DNA of 64,000 bases from Altererythrobacter sp. KTW20L (GTDB taxonomy: Bacteria; Pseudomonadota; Alphaproteobacteria; Sphingomonadales; Sphingomonadaceae). The position numbers and the translations under genes were made by a program. Below, in pieces: positions 40,788-52,842 of this stretch (within the stretch, counting starts at the first letter, position 1; each line of letters starts with the position of its first letter). The stretch lies in NCBI RefSeq assembly GCF_023501975.1, contig NZ_JAMFLH010000012.1:62001-126000 (forward strand), in the 5' to 3' direction. The notes below the pieces were generated by a model. That model was not told the DNA's origin. It did no database searches and was given only the letters and a program-made list of their open reading frames with translations.

Positions 40788-40864
40788 GCACCCGTAGCTC
40801 AGCAGGATAGAGCATCGGATTCCTAATCCGGGGGCCACAGGTTCGAATCCTGTCGGGTGCACCA
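40788..40864 (+). tRNA. tRNA-Arg (CCU)
   Basis: A 77-base tRNA with CCA encoded. Acceptor arms GCACCCG and CGGGTGC pair fully. The anticodon loop reads TTCCTAA, so the anticodon is CCT, decoding AGG (Arg). The T loop is GGTTCGAATCC. It is a candidate integration target; see the recombinase remnant that follows. Confidence 0.95.
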
Positions 40865-40978: not shown

Positions 40979-41236
40979 CTAAGTGAGCAGGAGCCGTGCG
41001 TAGAACTGAGGCAGGTCAGGTGAGCCATTCTGGAGTCGATCACGCAGCACAACAGCGAGCAGTTCCACCTTCAACGTGGTGATGACCGACTGGCGCTGGC
41101 TGAGGACAGAAGTTTCAGCGCCCAATTCGTCGCGACGAAACCTCAGACTGACCATGCGCTTGCGAAGGTTGGCGTCGGTGGTATCCATCAGGCCCTCGAG
41201 AATTGCGCGCTTCTGCCGCAATCTGTCCCTACTCAA
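40979..41236 (-). pseudogene. Serine recombinase C-terminal remnant
   Basis: An 85-residue open stretch whose spacing and content match the end of large serine recombinases: ILEGLMDTTDANLRKRM, then SLRFRRDELGAE and, near the end, RDRLQNGSPDLPQFYARLLL. The catalytic N-terminal resolvase domain is missing. In the reading direction the frame continues from the stop of the neighbouring antiporter gene, so it has no start of its own. I read it as a decayed recombinase end left at a tRNA-linked insertion site. Confidence 0.65.
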
Positions 41237-41257: not shown

Positions 41258-42964
41258 TCAAGGGACAGAAACGGCCGCGACAAGCAGGATGAAGGTGAGG
41301 AAGGCCAGACCGCTTATCTGTCCACGCAAAAATCCACCTTCCATTGCGCCAGTTTCCTGGGCCAGCCATCTCGAGCCTTTATGGACTGTCGCCACGATCT
41401 GGTCAGCCGCCAGACTTCGGGTCCTGGCCAGATGCTTGGGGACGGCGCGGAGCGGGCTGAGTTGGCGTGCCAACCAGCGTGCAACGGGCAGGGGGTCTGC
41501 TTCGTCGAGCGTTCCGACCGGCCAGCGGTTCGCAGCCATGACTCCGATCAGGCCCATGCCTAGCACAACCGGCCACAGCGCGGACCAGACTGCCGCCAGT
41601 CGAAGCGGGTAGTCGGGCGCGAGGGTGCTCCATTCGCTCCACAGCCACCAGGGCATGACCAAGGCTGCCAGGGCCAGCCCCACGGTCGGCAGTACCACGA
41701 GCATCGTCGGACGACCGCCCCCGGAAGCCTTGGCTTTCCCGGCGCTGGCGGAAAGACGGTGCACAAACCAGCCGAGCAGCAATGTCGTCGTGGCGGCAGA
41801 GATGGTCAACGCGAATTCCGCCAATGACCCGAGACCGCTCTTTGCCATCGCCTTGGCCAGTCCGCCTCCTGTCAGCGGCCCACCCGCGACCGAAAGTGCG
41901 ACCAACACAACCAGCACCAGGGCCGCGTTCCGCCAGCGCCCGGTCGAGAGCGCGACGAGCGCGACGCTCAGGAACAGCGCGCCTTTGGCCAGGCCGTGGT
42001 GGAATGCGTAAAATGCGGCGGGCGCCATGTCCGAGCCATCTGCCTGGGTTGCCGCACCGACCAGCGCGATCACCAGCCCCATCTGACTGATGGTCGAATA
42101 GGCGAGGATGGCCTTGGGAGCGCGCACTCGCAGCCCCGTCAATGCTGCGACAAATGCGGTGCCAAGGCCGATCACCAGCAACACCGATCCCGCCATGGTG
42201 GCGAGCGGCACGAACATCATCATTCCGATGATCCCCGCCTTGACGATAGCGCCGGACAACACGGCCGAGGCAGGAGTCGGGGCGGCAGGATGGGCCAGCG
42301 GCAACCACAGGTGCAGCGGCATCAACCCTGCCTTGATCCCGAACCCTGCGATCAGCAGCACCGTTGCCACTCCGCCGAGCGGGGCGGACAGGAGCGCCGC
42401 GCGAATGTCTGAAATCAGCAGCCCGTTGGCAGAAGCCGCGCCGATCACGAAGGCGGCCAGGAGACAGACTTCGCCGACAATCGCCAGCGCGGCATAGACC
42501 CGCCCCGCACGCAGCGCTGCCGGCGTTCCCTCGTGGACGACAAGGAAATAGGCCGATAGCGAGACGGCAGCAAAGGCGACGTAGAAGGTCACCACGTCCT
42601 GCGCCAGAAACACTCCGAGATTGCCCGCCAGCGTCAGGCACCAGAACCCGCTGAACACCGCCGGTTTGCGCGTCCCGGCCATCGAGCCCTGAGCATGAAG
42701 CGCCGCCGCGAACCACAAGGCTGCAGTCATCCCCAGCAGCAGTGCAGCGGGCCGCCCGGCGGCCAGCATCACGCCGAGCAGCAAATTGGGCGCCAGCGTC
42801 AGGCCCTCCACTCCGGTAAGGGCAAGCCACAGGGCGGGCAGCGGCGCGAGCGGCAGCAGCCGCAAGGCGTGCGGACGGATCGCAGGCAGCGATGCCAACA
42901 CCCCCAACAGCAGGGGCCAGATCAGTGCCACCAGCGGCAGCAGCGGGCCGCTCGCCCAGATCAT
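41258..42964 (-). CDS. NuoL/M/N-like antiporter subunit, MrpD-type, third copy
   Basis: 568 residues, about 14 to 16 hydrophobic segments, from the ATG at 42964. The TM7 Lys is present (GIKAGLMPLHLWLP) and another Lys is in GAIVKAGIIG. At the TM5 position, where relatives read FFELL or YVALELL, it has YVAFAAVSL, so the conserved Glu appears to be Ala. The C-terminal 90 residues are long and polar-hydrophobic (ARWLARQLSPLRAV), possibly a lateral helix. The start overlaps the previous subunit's stop by 4 bases. Likely part of one membrane complex, perhaps a structural or altered pump subunit. Confidence 0.85.
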   Translation of the reverse strand: MIWASGPLLPLVALIWPLLLGVLASLPAIRPHALRLLPLAPLPALWLALTGVEGLTLAPNLLLGVMLAAGRPAALLLGMTAALWFAAALHAQGSMAGTRKPAVFSGFWCLTLAGNLGVFLAQDVVTFYVAFAAVSLSAYFLVVHEGTPAALRAGRVYAALAIVGEVCLLAAFVIGAASANGLLISDIRAALLSAPLGGVATVLLIAGFGIKAGLMPLHLWLPLAHPAAPTPASAVLSGAIVKAGIIGMMMFVPLATMAGSVLLVIGLGTAFVAALTGLRVRAPKAILAYSTISQMGLVIALVGAATQADGSDMAPAAFYAFHHGLAKGALFLSVALVALSTGRWRNAALVLVVLVALSVAGGPLTGGGLAKAMAKSGLGSLAEFALTISAATTTLLLGWFVHRLSASAGKAKASGGGRPTMLVVLPTVGLALAALVMPWWLWSEWSTLAPDYPLRLAAVWSALWPVVLGMGLIGVMAANRWPVGTLDEADPLPVARWLARQLSPLRAVPKHLARTRSLAADQIVATVHKGSRWLAQETGAMEGGFLRGQISGLAFLTFILLVAAVSVP

Positions 42965-44436
42965 CGCAGATATTCCCGTTCGGCGATCAGCGTCGCCCAA
43001 CCCAGCGGGCTGAATGTCGCCGCCGCCAGCAGGCCAACCGCCACCGATGCGAAGGCGGTGATCACCGCAGGCGCAATCAGGCCCAGCGGGCGTTCTGTCG
43101 GAGCATCTCCAGCCGTGATCGCTGCTCCTGGTTCGAGAAACCAGATGCGATAGACCAGCGGCAGGAAATAGGCGGCGTTGAGCAAGGTCGAGGCGGCAAG
43201 CACCGCGATCACCCACGGTGCCCCGGCCTGCACCGCCCCGATGCCGAGATAGATCTTGGTTATGAACCCGGCCGTGGGCGGCAGGCCGACCATCCCGATC
43301 GCGCCCAGCGAGAAGCACACCGATGCCCAGGGCATACGCGCGCCGATGCCATCCAGTTGATCGACCCGGGTAATGCCCGCCCGCTCGTCAAAGATTCCGG
43401 CGCAGAAGAACAGGGTGATCTTCATCAACCCCTGGTGGACCAGATGCGCCAGCCCGCCGATCACTGCAAAGGGTGATGCCAGCGCGATCCCAAGCACGAT
43501 ATACGACACCTGGCTGACGGTGGAGAAGGCCAGCCGCTTCTTGATTTCGGTCTGTTGCAAGGCGCGCGCCGAACCCCACAGGATGGTGACCGATGCAAGC
43601 AGCGCCAAAGGCAAGGCAAGCCCAAGCTCGGCCATCAGATCAAGCCCGAATACGTCGAGCACAATCCGCATCACCCCGAAGGCCCCCGCCTTGACCACTG
43701 CCACGGCATGGAGCAGCGCGCTGACCGGTGCGGGCGCGGCCATTGCGGCGGGTAGCCAGCCGTGCAGCGGCACCAGCGCAGCCTTGGCCCCCAGTCCGGC
43801 GATGAACAGCGCAAAGATGATCCTCAGGCTGGTATCGTCGAGTTGCCGCAGATCGGCTGGCATGGCGAATTCGACCGGGCCCACCGTGCTTTCCAGCCAT
43901 ACTATGGCGATCAGCAGCAGCGCGCTGGCGGGCAGGGCATAGGTCAGATAGCTGCGGCCTGCCGCGATCGACTTGGCGTCCTGTTTGTGGACCACCAGCG
44001 GCCAGGTCGAGAGCGTCAGCAATTCAAAGAAGATGAAGAACGAGATCAGCGTGCCCGACAGCGCGATCCCTGTCGTGGCCGCCACGCACAGGCTGAAGAA
44101 GCCGAAAAAGCGCGACAGGTCGGGTTTGTTGCCAAGATAGGCGATGGCGTAGATCGTGGTCAGCAGCCACAGGAACGCCGACAGCGAAACGAACAGCAGC
44201 GACAGTGCATCGACACGCAGCAACAGGTATAGCCCCGGAGCAAACTCCAGACGCGTTTCGTAGATCGTGCCTTGCACCACTTGGATGAGCATGAACGCGA
44301 TCAACCCCAACTTGAGCACTGCCCCGCCCAGATTGAGCAGGTTGCGCAAGCGATGGCTTTCTTGTGGCAGGAAGAAGGTAGCGGTCGCTGCAACCAGCGA
44401 GGTCAGCAGGAGCAGGACTGGCAGCGCGGCGTTCAT
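42961..44436 (-). CDS. MrpD-type proton antiporter subunit, second copy
   Basis: 491 residues of the NuoL/M/N-MrpA/D family with about 14 transmembrane helices. The TM5 Glu is in FFIFFELLTLSTW; the TM7 Lys is in GLGAKAALVPLHGWLP and a further Lys in AVAVVKAGAFG; QQTEIKKRLAFSTVSQVSY is the TM8-9 loop. It overlaps both neighbours by 4 bases. Confidence 0.92.
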   Translation of the reverse strand: MNAALPVLLLLTSLVAATATFFLPQESHRLRNLLNLGGAVLKLGLIAFMLIQVVQGTIYETRLEFAPGLYLLLRVDALSLLFVSLSAFLWLLTTIYAIAYLGNKPDLSRFFGFFSLCVAATTGIALSGTLISFFIFFELLTLSTWPLVVHKQDAKSIAAGRSYLTYALPASALLLIAIVWLESTVGPVEFAMPADLRQLDDTSLRIIFALFIAGLGAKAALVPLHGWLPAAMAAPAPVSALLHAVAVVKAGAFGVMRIVLDVFGLDLMAELGLALPLALLASVTILWGSARALQQTEIKKRLAFSTVSQVSYIVLGIALASPFAVIGGLAHLVHQGLMKITLFFCAGIFDERAGITRVDQLDGIGARMPWASVCFSLGAIGMVGLPPTAGFITKIYLGIGAVQAGAPWVIAVLAASTLLNAAYFLPLVYRIWFLEPGAAITAGDAPTERPLGLIAPAVITAFASVAVGLLAAATFSPLGWATLIAEREYLR

Positions 44437-45941
44437 TCCAGGCCCTCGACCGCGCTCGCCGGGCGCCCGATCTGGATCAGGCTGAACGGAGTCTGCGATG
44501 CCAGGCCGAGCGTGATCGCGGCGAGCGCAAGCAGCAGCGGAACCAACTGCAGCCGGCGCGAAACCGGGGCGAAAGTCGGCGTGTCAGCTTTGGCAAAGGC
44601 CAGCGCGAGCGGTCGGTAGAGATAGGCTGCCGACAGCAGTCCCCCGACAACCAGCACCGCCCCCCAAACCACCTGCCCCGAGGCAAAAGCGGAGGTCAGC
44701 ATCAGGTATTTCGCGGTAAAGCCACCCGAAGGTGGTAGCCCGACCAGCGATACGGCGGCCAATGCAAAGGCAAACGCGGTCATCGGCGTGGCTGTCGCCA
44801 GCCCGCGCATGCCATCCAGTCGATCGTGCCCCACCGCGATGATCCACACCCCTGCGCACAGGAACATCGCTGCCTTGGCCAGTCCGTGGCTGAGCGCCTG
44901 GAACACGGCCCCGGTCCACGCACCTGCCGCCCAGGGCTGCGCGAATGAATCGCCCCCTGCCAGCGGAAACACCAGGAAAAGATAGCCGATCTGCGCCACG
45001 GTCGAATAGGCGACAATCAGCTTGAGCCGGCTTTGGCGCAGCGCCAGAACGGATCCGAACAGCACCGCAGCGGCACCTAGCGCGCCGAGCAGCGTCAGCA
45101 AAACGGGCGAGGCCAGTTCGGGCAGGGCTTCGAACCACAACCGGATGAGGATCAGGAACGAAGCCTTGGGCACCAGCGCCGAAAGCATCGCCGAAGCCGG
45201 GGCAGGCGCACCCGAATGGGCGGGCGGGAGCCAGGCGTGAAAGGGGAACAGCGCCGTCTTCACTGCCAGCCCGGCAGTTATCAGGCCCGCCGCGATCAGA
45301 TCCGCCGCAGCGGTTCCGCCAGAACGCCCGGAGCCGATCCCCTGGGCTGCCAGCAGCGTCAGGTCGAGCGTTCCGTGCCCGGCATAGAGCAGCGCGACCC
45401 CGAGCAGGTAAGCGAGCGATCCTGCCAGCGCGAACATCATGTAGCGCAGCCCCGCCGCAAGCGAGCCGGCCTTGCCCTCGATCGCCACCAGGGCCACCGC
45501 CGCGACGGTAAGCAGTTCGAGCGCGACGTAGAGATTGAACAGATCGCGCGACAGGAAGGCCACGTTCAGCGCGCTCCACAAGAGCAGGGCGAGAGGCCAG
45601 AAGGCCCATTGGCTGCGCGTCTCCCCGGAACCGGCCCGAGCGGCAAATTGCGGCCGCGCGCTGACCAGCACCGCCGCCATCACTGTCGCCACCATGGACA
45701 GGAAGGCCAGTCCAAGCCCGTCGAGGCGCAAGGTGATCCCCAGCGGGGCATTCCAGCCGCCAATGCTCAGGGAGAGCACGCCTTGCCGGACCAGGGCGGG
45801 CACCAGCACCACCAGCGCGGTAGCGATCCCTGCCACACCCAGCAGCGCGATCAGCGCCCCGCGCCGGGGCACCACCACCGCGAGCAGTGCCGCAAGCAGC
45901 GGCACTGCTACCAGTGCGACAAGGGCGAGCGAGAGGATCAT
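44433..45941 (-). CDS. mrpD: MrpD-type proton antiporter subunit, first copy
   Basis: 502 residues, about 14 hydrophobic segments. The TM5 Glu is in YVALELLTVAAVAL; the TM7 Lys in AVKTALFPFHAWLPPAH; ALRQSRLKLIVAYSTVAQIGY is the usual loop, and GLPPSGGFTAKYLML a late helix. Of the three D-type genes this, next to mrpC, is the one in the usual mrpD position. Overlaps mrpC and the next subunit by 4 bases. Confidence 0.9.
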   Translation of the reverse strand: MILSLALVALVAVPLLAALLAVVVPRRGALIALLGVAGIATALVVLVPALVRQGVLSLSIGGWNAPLGITLRLDGLGLAFLSMVATVMAAVLVSARPQFAARAGSGETRSQWAFWPLALLLWSALNVAFLSRDLFNLYVALELLTVAAVALVAIEGKAGSLAAGLRYMMFALAGSLAYLLGVALLYAGHGTLDLTLLAAQGIGSGRSGGTAAADLIAAGLITAGLAVKTALFPFHAWLPPAHSGAPAPASAMLSALVPKASFLILIRLWFEALPELASPVLLTLLGALGAAAVLFGSVLALRQSRLKLIVAYSTVAQIGYLFLVFPLAGGDSFAQPWAAGAWTGAVFQALSHGLAKAAMFLCAGVWIIAVGHDRLDGMRGLATATPMTAFAFALAAVSLVGLPPSGGFTAKYLMLTSAFASGQVVWGAVLVVGGLLSAAYLYRPLALAFAKADTPTFAPVSRRLQLVPLLLALAAITLGLASQTPFSLIQIGRPASAVEGLE

Positions 45942-46294
45942 TCGGGCGGGTCTTCGTGTGATGACGGGTGCGGACCCCCATCAATCGTATCGGCGTCTTC
46001 AGGAAGGCAGGCCTTTCCGCTGATCCGCACATAGGCCAGCACCAGACCGACGCCGAGCGCGGTAGCCGCCAGCGCGACCACGATGCCGGTGATGATCAGC
46101 GCCTGCGGCACCGGGTCGGTGGCCCCTGTTGGCGTACGCGCGGCAGTCGCTCCGAACAGCAGGAAAATGCCCGATCCGATGACATTGAACGCCAGCAGGC
46201 GGCGCAGCAGGTGCACCTGCGTGACGAAGCCGTAGAGCCCCAGGCCGATCAGCGCCGCGCCGCATAGCCCGAATATCGTTGCAGAGGTGATCAT
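45938..46294 (-). CDS. mrpC: Na+/H+ antiporter subunit MrpC (NuoK-like)
   Basis: 118 residues with three transmembrane segments, related to NuoK. Motifs: GFVTQVHLLRRLLAFNVIGSGIFLL and DPVPQALIITGIVVALAATALG, as in MrpC. A polar tail of about 25 residues ends with SSHEDPPE. It lies between the MrpB-type protein and mrpD, the standard place. Confidence 0.92.
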   Translation of the reverse strand: MITSATIFGLCGAALIGLGLYGFVTQVHLLRRLLAFNVIGSGIFLLFGATAARTPTGATDPVPQALIITGIVVALAATALGVGLVLAYVRISGKACLPEDADTIDGGPHPSSHEDPPE

Positions 46295-46304
46295 AACGGG
46301 GCGA

Positions 46305-47264
46305 TCATGGCGAAGGATCCGGAGTACCGAGCACCAGCAGCGCCAGCGTGGCAGCGATCGACAGGGTCAATGCAGCTTCGATGGTAAGGATCAGCGGCTT
46401 GGCATAGGTGGGCGGCAAGCCGAGAAATGTGCCCGCCATCGCGCCGGCGATTCCGATGCCGAGGAACACCAGCGGCCCGGCGACCAACACTGCCCGCAGT
46501 CCAACCGAAACCATGCGCGGGACGGGCATCAGCCCGGCCATCATGATCAGCAGCCAGACCGCCGCAAGCACGGTTCCGCCCTGGAAGGCACCGCCCGGAT
46601 AGGAGGAGCCGGCCCAGACCAGATAGACCCCAAGCAGCAGTCCGAAGGGTGGCAAAAGCCGTCCGAAAGTGGCCATCACCCCGCCTGGGCGCGCATGTTG
46701 GCGCAACCCTGCGCGGCGGCCCCAGTCACGATCGCGCGCCAGTGACCACAGCCCGACCAATGCCGCCAACAGCACCACACTTTCGAGCAACGTGTCCCAG
46801 CCGCGGAAATTGATCAGCACCGCGGTCACCGGGTTGGCGGATCCCGATACAGCCAGGTTATCCGCCACCGCATCACGCAGGCCGGTGGAGTCCGGCAGCG
46901 ACAGAAAGGCCCAGCCAAGCACGCCGCTGATTGAGCCTGCCACGACCATGCTCGCAAGCCGGGCGCCTGCGGGCGGTCTGCGCATTTCGTCGCTTGTGTT
47001 GTTCCCGGCAGGCGTAGTGACCCTTGAGAGCCGGGCAACGGCCCCGATCAGCAGAACTCCGGTCAGTCCGGCGCCGAGCGCGGCCTCGGTCAGTGCCACA
47101 TCGATCGCCCCCAGCCGCAACCATGCGATGGCGACGAACACGCCATAGACAATGAAGAACACCACCGCCCCGAACAGATCGCGCACGGTGATCGCGAACA
47201 GTCCGGCCCCCAGGATCAGGGCGGCCAGGATCAGGTCGAAGCCGAGGGCTGATATTCCGGTCAA
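46305..47264 (-). CDS. DUF4040 plus MrpB fusion subunit
   Basis: 319 residues. The N-terminal 85 residues (FFIVYGVFVAIAWLRLGAIDVALTEAALGAG) are a DUF4040 domain, equivalent to the last helices of MrpA. The C-terminal half contains RGWDTLLESVVLL (MrpA/MbhE-like tail) followed by an MnhB domain with PGGAFQGGTVLAAVW. A TTG start at 47264 overlaps the mrpG stop. The long MrpA pump domain is absent here, so this is the archaeal or cyanobacterial-like split arrangement rather than the alphaproteobacterial pha type. Confidence 0.85.
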   Translation of the reverse strand: MTGISALGFDLILAALILGAGLFAITVRDLFGAVVFFIVYGVFVAIAWLRLGAIDVALTEAALGAGLTGVLLIGAVARLSRVTTPAGNNTSDEMRRPPAGARLASMVVAGSISGVLGWAFLSLPDSTGLRDAVADNLAVSGSANPVTAVLINFRGWDTLLESVVLLAALVGLWSLARDRDWGRRAGLRQHARPGGVMATFGRLLPPFGLLLGVYLVWAGSSYPGGAFQGGTVLAAVWLLIMMAGLMPVPRMVSVGLRAVLVAGPLVFLGIGIAGAMAGTFLGLPPTYAKPLILTIEAALTLSIAATLALLVLGTPDPSP

Positions 47265-47620
47265 GGGTCACCCCGCAGAGTGCTTTCCGCCGGGTCATGT
47301 GCATCGGCCGAACGTTCTGCGGATTGCTCGCCGCTTTGCCAGGCAGAGCGGGCGACAAGCTGCGCGGTTGTGCCCGCAGCCACAAGCGCCAGGGCCCAGA
47401 CAAGCGCCAGTTTGCCAAGTGTCAGCAAGTCGGGTGCCTGGAACGCCAGCCCCAGGATCAGCAGGCCAAGCCCGACATTGTCTGCCTTGGTCAGCGCGTG
47501 CAACCGGCTGAGCGTGTCGGGAAAGCGGATGATCCCCGCAGTCCCGGCAAAAAAGAACAGCATTCCTGTGCCCGTAAGCACTATCGTCAGCGCGTCAGCC
47601 AGCATCGGCTGCTCGTACAC
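47261..47620 (-). CDS. mrpG: Na+/H+ antiporter subunit MrpG
   Basis: 119 residues with three hydrophobic segments. The conserved loop is FPDTLSRLHALTKADNVG, a signature of MrpG. The start is GTG at 47620 or ATG at 47605; both overlap mrpF. Tail is polar and charged. Confidence 0.9.
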   Translation of the reverse strand: MYEQPMLADALTIVLTGTGMLFFFAGTAGIIRFPDTLSRLHALTKADNVGLGLLILGLAFQAPDLLTLGKLALVWALALVAAGTTAQLVARSAWQSGEQSAERSADAHDPAESTLRGDP

Positions 47621-47939
47621 TCGGGCGCCGCGCGCCGTCAGACAAGCCGGCTACCTCTTCCTCGGGCCCTTCCTCGGGATCCCCGCTGCCGTCGCTGCTC
47701 TGTGCCTTCACAAAAGCAATTGCAGCGAAGGCGGCGAGCAGCGCCAGAACCAGCGCCACATCAACCATCGCCCAGTCGGTTGCCGCCGCCAGCAGCAGAA
47801 CCGTGCCGACGCCTCCCGTGCCGACCAGTTGCGCCGCCATCATCCGGTCGGCTGCCTGTGGCCCGCGCCAGATGCGCCACATCGCGCCCGCGAGGCTGAG
47901 CAGGAGCAAAGCTCCCAGCGCGAGCAGCCAGGCAGTCAT
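47595..47939 (-). CDS. mrpF: Cation/proton antiporter subunit MrpF
   Basis: 114 residues with three hydrophobic segments. The motif RIWRGPQAADRMMAAQLVGT is the MrpF signature (RGP..ADR). The C-terminal tail is acidic and Ser-rich (SGDPEEGPEEEV). It overlaps mrpE by 4 bases and mrpG by 26 to 11 bases. Confidence 0.92.
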   Translation of the reverse strand: MTAWLLALGALLLLSLAGAMWRIWRGPQAADRMMAAQLVGTGGVGTVLLLAAATDWAMVDVALVLALLAAFAAIAFVKAQSSDGSGDPEEGPEEEVAGLSDGARRPSVRAADAG

Positions 47940-48448
47940 GTAACGCCTCCGCTGGTCCTTGCCCGGTTGATCGTTCCCCGGACGCGGCGCTCCTCCTCCC
48001 GCACGGCAGCTTCGATATCATGATCGAGATCGAGCACATGGACCAGCAGGTGATCACCGTCGCATCCCGCAGCAAGCGTCCCGGGCATCAGCGACAATTC
48101 ACCGCCAAGCGCCACCCGGCCGCCCTCGGGAAGAGCGACGGCGATCCGGAGTCTGCCCGGCCGGATCGGGAGCTGCGGGTGGAAGGCACGCCGTGCGACG
48201 TCGATCCCGCCGATGAGCGATTGCCAGACAAATCGCGGGAACAAGGCGGCAAGGGGGCCAAACCGCAGCGGCACACCACCCGGCAACAGGAAGAGGCTGA
48301 GCCAGGTTGCGAGTGGTACGATGATCGCGCCGACAACCAGCGCCTCTCCGCCACCCCCCGCGAGCACGAGCCAGATCACCGCGAGGGGAACGCCGCGTCG
48401 CGCGGCCCGTCCTATCCGCGAGCTGTCAAATGTCAGTCCACCGCTCAT
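47936..48448 (-). CDS. mrpE: Cation/proton antiporter subunit MrpE
   Basis: 170 residues. Two hydrophobic segments at the N-terminal half, then the MrpE pattern with IGGIDVARRAFHP, a region of LSLMPGTLAAG and a polar, charged C-terminus (HVLDLDHDIEAAVREEERR). It is the first gene of the operon; upstream is about 300 bases without a gene. Confidence 0.88.
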   Translation of the reverse strand: MSGGLTFDSSRIGRAARRGVPLAVIWLVLAGGGGEALVVGAIIVPLATWLSLFLLPGGVPLRFGPLAALFPRFVWQSLIGGIDVARRAFHPQLPIRPGRLRIAVALPEGGRVALGGELSLMPGTLAAGCDGDHLLVHVLDLDHDIEAAVREEERRVRGTINRARTSGGVT

Positions 48449-48752: not shown

Positions 48753-50393
48753 TCAAATCTCGTTTGCCGCGGCGAACCGGTTGATGTGCTCGGCAGCGCG
48801 GAAGGCAAGGGCTTCGATGGTGTGGGTTGGCTGGCCGCGTGTGGAAGTCGGCAGGCTGGAACCGTCGCACAGGAACAGGTTCGTCACATCGTGCGTGCGA
48901 TGGTACTTGTCGATTACCGAGGTCGTCGGGTCGTCGCCCATGCGGCATGTGCCCAGCAGGTGGACACCGCCATTGGCCGGGCCAACCTCGCTTGGCACGA
49001 TCTGGACTGCGCCGGCGGCATCCATGATCTCGACCGCCCGATCGACCATGAACTGAGCGTGCTTCATGTCGTCCGGATGGTCCTTGTAGGTCACCCGCAT
49101 GGCCGAAACACCCCAGTCGTCCTTCAGGTCGGGGTCGATGTCGATCCGGTTGGTCGGCTGCGCCAGCGACGTGCCGTGGCCCGCGCAATTCATCCAGTGG
49201 GTGTAGCTTTCGAGATAGTCCTTGAACTCCGGCCCCCAGGTCGGCGTGCCTTCCGGAACGTTCTGGCCCCAGGTCAGCGGGCCGCCGGATCGCGCCGTAA
49301 AGCCGCCACCGCCATAGAAGCCGCGCGCCGGATCGGAATTGTAGAAATCGTGCAGCATCATGGTGACGTTGGCACCCTTGTACTCGTTCAATGGCTCCTC
49401 GAACCGCGCCTGTGCGCCGCCGCCCTTGTTGAGCATCAGGTTGCGGCCCACCATGTCGCTGGAATTGGCAAGGCCCGTGGGTTGCGCGTTGGTGGCGGAA
49501 TTGAGTAGCAGTTTGGGCGTTTCGGAGCCATTGGCGCAGACCACCACGGCGCGGGCGTGCTGGAACTGCTCCACCCGATCACCATCGAAATAGTGTACGC
49601 CGGTGGCGCGGCCGGCATCATTCATGCCGATCTGGAACACATAGCTGTTGGAGCGGACCTCGCAATTGCCGCTTTCTTCCGCTTCCGGGATGACGGTCCA
49701 GACCGACGAATTTTTGGCCTTCACCTCGCAGGCAAAGCCGCCGCACAGCCCGCATTGCACGCAGGCCGGGCGACCCCGGTAAACGGTCGAATTGATTGCC
49801 ATCGGCGAAGGGAAGGGGTGCAGCCCCAGCGCCCGCGCACCGCGTTCGAACAGCACGCCGGACGATTTGATCGGCAGGTGCGGCATCGGGTAGGGCCTAG
49901 AGTGGAACGAGGCGAAGGGGCTGGCGCCCGCCAGGCCCGATACGCCGACTTCCCATTCCACCTTGCAGTAATAGGGTTCCAGCTCGGCATATGTGATCGG
50001 CCAGTCCACCAGGTCCGCGCCCTCGATCGGGCCGAGGACGCTGCGTTCGATGAAGTCGATCTCGTGGAGCCGCCAGAAGTTGGCATTGAAGTGTGAACTG
50101 CTCCCACCCACGACGCGGGCATAGGTCATCGAATTGCGCCGCACCGCCACCTCGCTTTCGTCGCGGCGGAAGGTCTGCGGATTGGTGGCCGGGTTGTTCG
50201 TGATGCCCGAGAGGTGGCGGTATTTCAGTTCGTCGTGCTCGAACTCCCAGGCATCGAGCCGCGGCCCCTGCTCCATGATGACCACGCTGTGGCCGGCCAG
50301 GGCCAGCTCCCGCGCCACGATGCCGCCTGCCGATCCGGACCCGACCACGATGAAATCGACCGTCTCGCTGGTCGGAAATGTCTTGCGTTCCAT
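48753..50393 (-). CDS. GMC-family flavoprotein dehydrogenase
   Basis: 546 residues, related to the large subunit of gluconate/sorbitol/glucose FAD dehydrogenases. The FAD fingerprint is VVGSGSAGGIVARELA near residue 16; a Cys-rich piece, RPACVQCGLCGGFAC, may hold an iron-sulphur cluster as in FAD-glucose dehydrogenase. The substrate-site His is in HLLGTCRMG, and the C-terminal GQPTHTIEALAFRAA is typical. It lies 12 bases after the gene for its partner subunit. The substrate is not deducible. No cytochrome subunit gene follows. Confidence 0.9.
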   Translation of the reverse strand: MERKTFPTSETVDFIVVGSGSAGGIVARELALAGHSVVIMEQGPRLDAWEFEHDELKYRHLSGITNNPATNPQTFRRDESEVAVRRNSMTYARVVGGSSSHFNANFWRLHEIDFIERSVLGPIEGADLVDWPITYAELEPYYCKVEWEVGVSGLAGASPFASFHSRPYPMPHLPIKSSGVLFERGARALGLHPFPSPMAINSTVYRGRPACVQCGLCGGFACEVKAKNSSVWTVIPEAEESGNCEVRSNSYVFQIGMNDAGRATGVHYFDGDRVEQFQHARAVVVCANGSETPKLLLNSATNAQPTGLANSSDMVGRNLMLNKGGGAQARFEEPLNEYKGANVTMMLHDFYNSDPARGFYGGGGFTARSGGPLTWGQNVPEGTPTWGPEFKDYLESYTHWMNCAGHGTSLAQPTNRIDIDPDLKDDWGVSAMRVTYKDHPDDMKHAQFMVDRAVEIMDAAGAVQIVPSEVGPANGGVHLLGTCRMGDDPTTSVIDKYHRTHDVTNLFLCDGSSLPTSTRGQPTHTIEALAFRAAEHINRFAAANEI

Positions 50394-50405
50394 GATCGCG
50401 CTCCG

Positions 50406-51020
50406 TCAGGCGGTGAAGGGCTGGGTGCCGGGGTAGGGGACAAACCCGGGGTAATCCCGGTCGTAGAATCCGAAGGGCGAGGTCCAGAAGTGGCGGTTCT
50501 CCACGCCGATCAGGTCCCATCCCTTGTATTCGTGGTTGCCGCCATATTTGGGCAGGGCAATCAGACCGAGGACGGTGAGGCGGCGGATAGCCAGGAAGAA
50601 CGGAGTCTCATCCACCTCGTGCAGCCATTCGACCTGCTGCGCTTCGGGTGCGGCGGAAAACGGCGTTGCCGAGCCCGTGTGCGCTGCGAAAGCGCTCTGG
50701 AATTCGGCCAGGCCCAGCTCGAATTCGGGCCACTGGGCGGCGAAGAAGCTGCCCAGGGCATTGTCGATGAAGTAGAGCACCTGCGCATCACGCGCCCCGG
50801 GCTTGGCGCCCCCGGGCACGATCAGGTTCATGATGGCGTCCACCTCGGCGGCCTGCGGCACAGTGAGCCGTGTCAGGCTGGCATGTCCGGCGCCATCCCC
50901 GTGATGCCCATGTTCGGCGGCGCTGGCAATCTGCGGCCAGTTGACGGCGATCCAGCTCGCGCTGGCGAGGTTGCCGACTGCTATCAGGAATTGGCGACGC
51001 GAGGGGCTTGGTTGTTCCAT
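50406..51020 (-). CDS. Gluconate 2-dehydrogenase subunit 3 family protein (Tat-exported)
   Basis: 204 residues. The N-terminus SRRQFLIAVGNLASA is a twin-arginine signal, and a His/Gly-rich stretch (EHGHHGDGAGH) follows. The motif AIMNLIVPGGAKPGARDAQV is typical of the gamma (subunit 3) protein that carries the GMC catalytic subunit to the periplasm. The two genes are 12 bases apart and form an operon, with this one upstream. Confidence 0.9.
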   Translation of the reverse strand: MEQPSPSRRQFLIAVGNLASASWIAVNWPQIASAAEHGHHGDGAGHASLTRLTVPQAAEVDAIMNLIVPGGAKPGARDAQVLYFIDNALGSFFAAQWPEFELGLAEFQSAFAAHTGSATPFSAAPEAQQVEWLHEVDETPFFLAIRRLTVLGLIALPKYGGNHEYKGWDLIGVENRHFWTSPFGFYDRDYPGFVPYPGTQPFTA

Positions 51021-51730: not shown

Positions 51731-52720
51731 TCAGAACCGCACGACGACCTTGCCGATCTGCTGGTTCGATTCGAGATAGGCGTTCGCTTCCGGCAGGGAT
51801 TCCAGACCGTTGAAGACCTTTGCTATTACCGGATCGAGCTTGCCCAGGGCGAGGCCGGCCAGTACCTTCTCGCGCGCGGCGGCGAAGCGGTGGGGGTGGT
51901 TCCATATCTCACTGGCCACCCAACCGCGCATCGACGCGCCCTTGAATGCCATCGGCCAGTGCGGATAGGGCGTGGGCTGGCCGCTGAGGCCGCCATAGAC
52001 GAACAGGATGCCGCGCGGGGCGAGGGCCTGGGCCAGGGTGTCAACATAGGAGCCGCCGACCGGATCGAACGCGCAGCGCGCGCCTTTTCCGCCGGTGATC
52101 TCCATCACCCGTTCGACCAGGTCCTCCTCCTCGGTGGCGATAACGTGGGCCGCGCCATGGTCCTTCAGCGCGCCAGCCTTGGTGCTGGTTCGGGTGGCGG
52201 CGATGGGGATGGCGCCCGCCCAGTTGCACAGCTGGATCGCGGCGAGGCCCACGCTGGATGAGGCGGCGGGAATGATCACCGCATCGTTCGGACCAACTTC
52301 GGCCACTTCATAGACGGCATAGGCGGTCATGTACTGCATCCAGATGGCTGCGGCGGTTACGGGGTCCATGTGATCGGGCGCGGGTTGTAGTATGCGAGTG
52401 GGAACAATGGCTTCGTCGGCCCAGATCCCGTAATCGCCCTGTGAAATCATCGGTAGGACGCAGACTCGCTGGCCCACGGCGTAGTCACTCACCCCGTCGC
52501 CCAGTGCCACGATGGTTCCGGCCCCTTCATAACCGATGAGGCTGGGGAACTGGGGCCGGGTGGGATAGTGGCCTGCGCGGTACATCGCCTCGGCGCGGTT
52601 GAGACCGACGGCTTCCACCTTGATGCGGACATGGCCGGGGCCGGGCGGGCCGATGTCCAGTTCCTCGATCACCAGCTTCTCGAGGCCGCCGGTCTCGTGG
52701 AATCGTATTACCCTGGTCAT
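51731..52720 (-). CDS. Zinc-independent alcohol dehydrogenase/quinone oxidoreductase family protein
   Basis: 329 residues from the ATG at 52720 of the medium-chain reductase family. The N-terminal GroES-like domain shows GLNRAEAMYRAGHYP and GYEGAGTIVALGD; the NADPH-binding domain shows PAASSSVGLAAIQL and FDPVGGSYVD. There are no structural zinc Cys, as in QOR-type enzymes. The frame to 52831 adds residues in front without homology. Substrate unknown. Confidence 0.88.
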   Translation of the reverse strand: MTRVIRFHETGGLEKLVIEELDIGPPGPGHVRIKVEAVGLNRAEAMYRAGHYPTRPQFPSLIGYEGAGTIVALGDGVSDYAVGQRVCVLPMISQGDYGIWADEAIVPTRILQPAPDHMDPVTAAAIWMQYMTAYAVYEVAEVGPNDAVIIPAASSSVGLAAIQLCNWAGAIPIAATRTSTKAGALKDHGAAHVIATEEEDLVERVMEITGGKGARCAFDPVGGSYVDTLAQALAPRGILFVYGGLSGQPTPYPHWPMAFKGASMRGWVASEIWNHPHRFAAAREKVLAGLALGKLDPVIAKVFNGLESLPEANAYLESNQQIGKVVVRF

Positions 52721-52783
52721 CGCAAGTCTCCCTTTTGCCACGCATTCCTGCGCGCGCGGGGCCTCGCTGTCCAGCGTGCCAGA

Positions 52784-52820
52784 GACAAAAGAAAGGGGCC
52801 GCTCCCGAAGGAACGGCCCC
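52784..52820 (-). terminator. Terminator downstream of the TonB-dependent receptor
   Basis: Read on the minus strand, GGGGCCG pairs with CGGCCCC, extended by further pairs across a C-A mismatch to a CGAA-type tetraloop. It is followed on the minus strand by a T-rich stretch (CTTTCTTTTGTCTC). This is a good Rho-independent terminator for the receptor gene, 23 bases beyond its stop. Confidence 0.8.
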
Positions 52821-52842
52821 GATCTTGTCATACGTAGCGCGA

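Follow-up and report, generated by a model that had tools for sequence, protein, structure and literature searches.

Introduction

Group 3 Mrp antiporters are defined by the absence of mrpA and by the presence of mrpD, sometimes in multiple copies (PMC8415708). The stand-alone mrp operon of P. furiosus follows the order EFGBB'CD and is functional in pH homeostasis, with Na+ as the coupling ion (PMC8415708); Microbacterium sp. TS-1 (mrpFGBCDDAE) and Aphanothece halophytica (mrpCD1D2EFGAB) are also listed in this group, and the A. halophytica system performs Na+/H+ antiport in E. coli (PMC5703873). In a published group 3 operon of Ca. Nitrospira alkalitolerans, mrpD is followed downstream by NuoM- and NuoL-like genes (PMC7784846). 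The consequences of operon structure in the Mrp groups "have not been well studied" (PMC8415708). Here we analyze an eight-gene operon of Altererythrobacter sp. KTW20L that encodes three antiporter-like subunits, named D1, D2 and D3. It lies in a 64,000-nucleotide stretch of contig NZ_JAMFLH010000012.1, positions 62,001 to 126,000 (hereafter the window, to which coordinates refer unless another contig or locus is named).

Judging from its protein sequences, the operon probably specifies a horizontally acquired, stand-alone group 3 Mrp-type cation/proton antiporter, composed of a core with D1, an extra unit D2 and a distal unit D3. New here are a residue signature of D3 in transmembrane helices 5 and 6 (TM5/TM6), the series of D1-D3, D1-D2-D3 and D1-D2-D3-D3 operons, and the kinship of D2 with green complex I; for each of the three, a literature search that left subscription papers mostly outside its reach found no description.

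Operon Organization and Gene Content

The genes mrpE-F-G-(MbhD/MbhE+MnhB)-C-D1-D2-D3 occupy positions 41258-48448 of the minus strand, exactly as placed and ordered in a preliminary description of the locus, and all eight products score above the Pfam cut-offs. Adjacent genes overlap by 4 bases (26 at mrpF/mrpG), the sole gap being the 10 bases between the fusion gene and mrpC. Because neighbors overlap or nearly abut, the eight genes form one operon; a promoter and terminator scan at the operon gave no signal above chance.

The fusion gene (46305..47264, TTG start) encodes a 319-aa protein joining MbhD (PF13244, 60.6 bits) and MnhB (PF04039, 42.3 bits) in a single polypeptide, with an additional weak MbhE segment (PF20501; 24.9 bits, below the cut-off of 27). 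Its profile matches the C-terminal MrpA regions of 7d3u_A, 7qru_A and 6z16_A, as well as MbsD, MbsE, MbhD and MbhF, and its RGWDTLLE motif (R154, E161) aligns with the R773/E780 region of MrpA. Since the MbhD/MbhE part matches the MrpA C-terminus, the C-terminal half of MrpA is present and MrpA has not simply been lost. Full-length MrpA is not encoded in the operon, where the NuoL-like half never stands on the same polypeptide as the MbhD/MbhE part.

Three proteins with the Proton_antipo_M domain (PF00361) follow at the distal end. D1 (502 aa, 44433..45941; 181.8 bits, 2.3e-53) is an MrpD-type antiporter-like subunit whose best match among solved structures is the MrpD chain 7qru_D; D2 (491 aa, 42961..44436; 184 bits, 4.7e-54) is likewise an antiporter-like subunit, and D3 (568 aa, 41258..42964; 115.5 bits, 3.4e-33) is predicted to have the shape of NuoL or the N-terminal half of MrpA (MrpA-N), with a C-terminal lateral helix. 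The TM5 glutamate is kept in D1 and D2 and missing from D3.

The remaining subunits are MrpE (170 aa, 47936..48448; MNHE, PF01899, 78.7 bits, 4.9e-22), MrpF (114 aa, 47595..47939; MrpF_PhaF, PF04066, 27.3 bits, 5.1e-06), which passes its cut-off and matches MbsB/MrpF chains of solved structures, MrpG (119 aa, 47261..47620; PhaG_MnhG, PF03334, 77.3 bits, 1.1e-21) and the NuoK-like MrpC (118 aa, 45938..46294; Oxidored_q2, PF00420, 55.9 bits, 3.6e-15), matching MbsG, MbhG and MrpC chains.

Genes of the B, C, E, F, G and D types thus stand together with no mrpA, and D2 and D3 fall outside the MrpA clade. As lack of mrpA, with mrpD present at times in more than one copy, already defines group 3, the operon belongs to this known kind and is not a new system. 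The preliminary description had noted both the absent mrpA and the three NuoL/M/N-like proteins, which Pfam confirms, and had read the fusion as DUF4040+MrpB; the fusion stands, with the MbhE segment and the MrpA C-terminal half to be added. Its view of the operon as an unexplained departure from the usual layout does not hold, as group 3 is defined in this very way (PMC8415708) and the Ca. N. alkalitolerans operon provides a published precedent (PMC7784846).

Residue Signature of D3

The alignment places E. coli NuoL E144, D178, K229 and K399 and NuoM E144, K234, K265 and E407 in the correct columns, which validates it for D3. The TM5 glutamate position (NuoL E144, MrpD E137) is occupied in D3 by Ala132 (42569..42571) and holds A, S, T, G or V in 81/81 aligned D3 sequences (A 64, S 6, T 6, G 3, V 2). 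Glu165 in TM6 (42470..42472), in the column of E. coli NuoL Asp178, is a glutamate in all 81 and in five further copies, so TM5 Glu is absent and TM6 Glu present in 86/86 D3. None of 184 D1, D2 and reference sequences has the TM6 glutamate, and their TM5 residue is Glu wherever aligned; DabB, added later to the comparison, is the exception that shares the D3 pattern (A/I/L/V/T in TM5, an acid in TM6 of most). One DabA-adjacent DabB (locus L152) is without both the TM6 acid and the TM7 lysine that most other DabB keep.

These substitutions could mean that D3 is a non-pumping structural cap, in which the essential TM5 glutamate is lost, the lateral helix clamps the row and transport is left to D1 and D2. 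Matching alanine mutants of MrpA and MrpD retain the complex and lose all antiport (PMC5703873), as this explanation would have it, and among the three proteins D3 diverges most, with 61% identity to its nearest tree match compared with 65% for D1 and 71% for D2. However, Lys211 in TM7 (42332..42334; NuoL K229, MrpD K219) is conserved in 81/81 D3, the TM8 lysine in 78/81, TM11 His/Lys in 80/81 and the TM12 lysine in 80/81, alongside the invariant new TM6 glutamate, all across many phyla, and operons with D1 and D3 alone exist. Conservation of these residues over phyla argues against decay of D3 as judged from the alignment, and we regard a purely structural role as unlikely. D1 and D2 keep both TM5 Glu and TM7 Lys.

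Predicted Fold of D3

An AlphaFold2 model of D3 built from 70 alignment rows (predicted local distance difference test score (pLDDT) 88.8, predicted template modeling score 0.88) comprises a 14-helix core, an extra TM helix (456-478), helices 492-501 and 503-546 and a last TM helix (551-566), with pLDDT of about 54-73 past residue 480. The 44-residue helix 503-546 (41327..41458), placed before the last TM helix and predicted at a pLDDT of about 54-62, is polar (mean Kyte-Doolittle -0.15). The arrangement of core, TM15, lateral helix and TM16 is that of NuoL and MrpA-N (PMC9568556), and the best structural matches among those listed are NuoL (Z 42.8) and MrpA (Z 41.0). D3 is therefore modeled with a NuoL/MrpA-N-type fold, confident in the core and of low confidence in the lateral helix.

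Phylogeny of D1, D2 and D3

Trees were built with NuoL/M/N, MrpA, MrpD, Mbh/Mbs, Hyf/Hyc, green complex I and DabB as references, those from the Protein Data Bank entering as aligned stretches rather than whole chains. D1, D2 and D3 are each monophyletic with 100/100 support and span phyla. D1 is placed with MrpD, NuoN and MbhH, and D3 forms a long branch of its own. The sister group of D2 is the MrpD1 of rhizobial green complex I, from S. meliloti pSymA and Pararhizobium (support 100/100), so a simple known group, an outcome that the preliminary description had named as speaking against its reading, exists for D2 and not for D3. A clade of D3 with MrpA is rejected by the approximately unbiased (AU) test (p 0.004), and one of D2 with MrpA less strongly (p 0.018). 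The earlier statement that the MrpA pump domain is missing is accordingly right in that there is no mrpA and D3 is not phylogenetically MrpA, but too strong in that D3 has the predicted NuoL/MrpA-N fold with a lateral helix.

A single clade of D1, D2 and D3 is neither established nor rejected (AU p 0.165); its not being rejected would suit an ordinary recent mrpD duplication inside a Pha operon. Copies from a recent duplication should resemble one another more than they resemble orthologues from other phyla, and the three separate cross-phylum clades already disfavor this on sequence grounds; D2 is akin to a complex I subunit, and D3 is set apart by a C-terminal extension and a residue signature. 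We consider a recent duplication very improbable.

The tree also rules out that D3 is DabB or the MrpD2 of green complex I. DabB groups with NuoL (98/84) and not with D3; it is sister to NuoL and has lost its TM5 glutamate separately. The shared residue pattern could otherwise point to a proton-driven inorganic carbon system like DAB, but, besides the position of DabB in the tree, the genome has no match to DabA (PF10070) and the operon carries a complete Mrp small-subunit set, which makes this explanation hardly credible. The MrpD2 proteins of rhizobial green complex I (L150:15612-17387 and L151:10573-12387) keep TM5 Glu and have Asn for the TM7 lysine.

Distribution and Variable Number of D Units

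Scanning the genome collection with a D3 profile yielded at least 80 loci, a set that is chosen by D3 similarity and thus says nothing on how frequent three D genes are among all Mrp loci. The complete eight-gene set lies on one strand in 55/80 D3-bearing loci listed, from about ten phyla (two of the 55 with D2 and D3 fused, one with a broken D3), and the loci outside the 55 are mostly cut at contig edges. This gene order is far beyond chance. Hosts include haloalkaliphiles and marine bacteria and comprise Rhodobacteraceae, Marinobacter, Halomonas, Ectothiorhodospira, Thioalkalivibrio, Nitrotoga and soda-lake metagenome-assembled genomes (MAGs), as well as Actinomycetota (variant order G F BB C D D D ... 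E), Bacteroidales, Chloroflexi, Planctomycetes, Verrucomicrobia and Desulfobulbaceae. Three rhizobial plasmids carry the genes as well. On p4 of Rhizobium rosettiformans (39 kb, mobilizable) and pMET1 of Aminobacter the order is the same, and annotation calls the D proteins no more than "proton-conducting transporter membrane subunit" and "complex I subunit 5 family protein"; in Sinorhizobium sojae the operon parts lie on a 2 Mb replicon.

Most loci have the layout D1-D2-D3. D1 is followed directly by D3, without D2, in three Acetobacteraceae loci (L040, L042, L047) and in a Gemmatimonadetes MAG (L105, a locus that begins inside the operon), while a Thiobacillus MAG (L082, 8839-12150) has tandem D3 genes and hence four antiporter-like subunits (D1-D2-D3-D3). 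Within this D3-selected set, D3 is therefore the constant partner of D1 and D2 an optional insert. In three gammaproteobacterial MAGs (L054, L061, L068), D2 and D3 form a single open reading frame (ORF) of 1078-1088 aa, and because of these fusions the two subunits are very probably adjacent in the complex. The D1-D2-D3 order, the D2-D3 fusions and the natural two-, three- and four-unit operons make the earlier hint of a complex with more pump units a likely one.

Genomic Context

The genome (3.09 Mb, 35 contigs, 99.99% complete) has eight PF00361 genes: three of complex I (C4:69015-73506), three in the group 3 operon and two on contig C11. The C11 pair are the mrpA' and mrpD of a complete canonical operon, mrpA'(fused A-B)-C-D-E-F-G. 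As this mrpA' has its own CDEFG, no piece of the eight-gene operon is missing; a partner or an mrpA elsewhere that would complete it, a possibility raised in the preliminary description, is ruled out.

The operon ends 0.4 kb from a tRNA-Arg(CCT) gene (40788..40864, plus strand; ARAGORN), the edge of an insertion of about 10.9 kb that reaches to an ADH gene (51731-52831). Four congeners (G657, G661, G014, G679) have the order Hsp20 - glutaredoxin - nitrilase - DUF1178 - tRNA-Arg - ADH, with a tRNA-to-ADH spacing of about 30 bases to 1.5 kb and a TonB receptor after ADH wherever the contig extends far enough; in a fifth (G673) the left side and tRNA are alike, and ADH is not in the stretch seen. 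D3 is present in 1/31 congeners, strongly in 2/99 family genomes and, at E<=1e-60, in 10/299 phylum genomes, the genome of the window being included in each count. The operon belongs to a horizontally acquired island of about 10.9 kb at tRNA-Arg(CCT). Six of the PF00361 proteins do lie within the window, as described earlier, but since the operon sits in a tRNA-Arg insertion that congeners lack, it lies near complex I (at a distance of about 30 kb) by coincidence, and a functional tie based on proximity is ruled out.

Besides the operon, the insertion contains small ORFs and, directly upstream of it (48753-51020), genes for a GMC oxidoreductase and a Gluconate_2-dh3 subunit. An 85-aa ORF between tRNA-Arg and operon (40979-41236) was suspected by eye to be a recombinase remnant, but it matches nothing on plasmids or in Pfam, even with the E-value limit at 10, and is left unassigned.

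The surroundings also bear on whether the three D proteins belong to a redox complex of the hydrogenase, Mbs or complex I type, with the operon as its membrane module. The kinship of D2 with green complex I MrpD1 fits, as does the resemblance to Mbh/Mbs modules, already pointed out in the preliminary description and borne out by gene order and profile matches. However, in the insertion we saw neither hydrogenase nor Nuo genes, nor one for a NuoH-like, quinone-binding protein; no neighbor family recurs beside the operon (at most 9/80 loci share one), and the complex I of this genome already has three such subunits, so that we find a redox complex improbable.

Proposed Function and Mechanism

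On sequence grounds, the operon most likely encodes a predicted Na+(K+)/H+ antiporter whose pump units are modular in number. We infer that Na+ or K+ would leave and H+ enter the cell, and that all subunits would assemble into one complex. The cation may be handled by a core of MrpE, F, G, C and the MbhD/MbhE-MnhB fusion, which corresponds to MrpB, C, E, F, G and the C-terminal part of MrpA. Adjoining this core, D1 would serve as the MrpD-type proton unit; D2 would be an additional, inserted unit, and D3 would stand at the distal end, where its lateral helix may hold the row together in the manner of NuoL and MrpA-N. Extra units would use more H+ per cation exported and could ease extrusion against a steep gradient.

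In NuoL, K229 and D178 form a 3.3 Å ion pair and E144 pairs via R175 (PMC13324432). DabB2 keeps the K229-D178-type pair, has Ile in place of E144 and is thought to be in an "open" state, and its I151E mutation halves growth (PMC13144422). By analogy, the TM7 lysine of D3 may pair with the TM6 glutamate, and loss of the TM5 glutamate may remove a regulated gate, making D3 a proton inlet that is mostly open, in line with the proposal for DabB2; we give this a nearly even chance. A wider proposal is put forward tentatively: D3 may be an undescribed subunit class, its coupling carboxylate moved from TM5 to TM6 convergently with DabB and its role that of an ungated distal inlet, while D2-type insertions may tune the H+/cation ratio across two-, three- and four-unit antiporters.

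Several points weigh against this picture. Bacillus Mrp loses its antiport with either MrpA-E140A or MrpD-E137A (PMC5703873), and D3 without that glutamate could therefore be inactive. The D3 lateral helix is predicted at a pLDDT of only 54-62; the deep position of D3 is uncertain because of its long branch, and the tree is without cyanobacterial group 3 proteins. For three-D members, the literature search turned up no data on transport, assembly or expression.

These operons bear on why the count of antiporter-like subunits differs between Mrp, complex I and hydrogenases, and on the contribution of each unit. They are natural two-, three- and four-unit versions on the same core, and D3 is nature's own experiment on a supposedly essential TM5 glutamate, so stoichiometry and the role of the TM5/TM6 ion pair become testable in one system. 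The shifted acidic residue of D3 may show how such machines add pump units.

Comparison with Known Systems

Complex I and green complex I are distinguished by NADH/quinone modules of the NuoA-I type, of which the insertion has none, and MBH/MBS by hydrogenase-like large and small subunits, of which neither operon nor island has any. Rhizobial green complex I, in which two MrpD-like subunits replace NuoL, shares with this operon the sister relationship of its MrpD1 to D2, whereas its MrpD2 is unrelated to D3. DabB of DAB CO2-uptake complexes resembles D3 in the replaced TM5 glutamate and, in most, the kept TM6 acid, but is of separate origin and comes with DabA, while D3 keeps the TM12 lysine.

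The P. furiosus operon is alike in having no canonical mrpA, in its separate B/B' domains and in its order E F G B B' C D, and group 3 in general allows several D genes. Unlike the operons of P. furiosus, A. halophytica and Microbacterium TS-1, the present one has three D genes, fused B/B' and the TM5/TM6 switch of D3, differences drawn from published descriptions of those operons. The Ca. N. alkalitolerans locus apparently has the same three-D layout, a likeness taken from its published description (PMC7784846). Canonical group 1/2 Mrp/Pha systems, including the C11 operon of this genome, share C, E, F, G, MrpB, the MrpA C-terminal domains and an MrpD resembling D1. Their MrpA unites a NuoL-like N-terminal half with an MbhD/MbhE C-terminal half; here MrpA is split, its C-terminal half fused to MnhB and its N-terminal half absent as such, with the N-terminal pump role probably taken by D2 and D3 from outside the MrpA clade.

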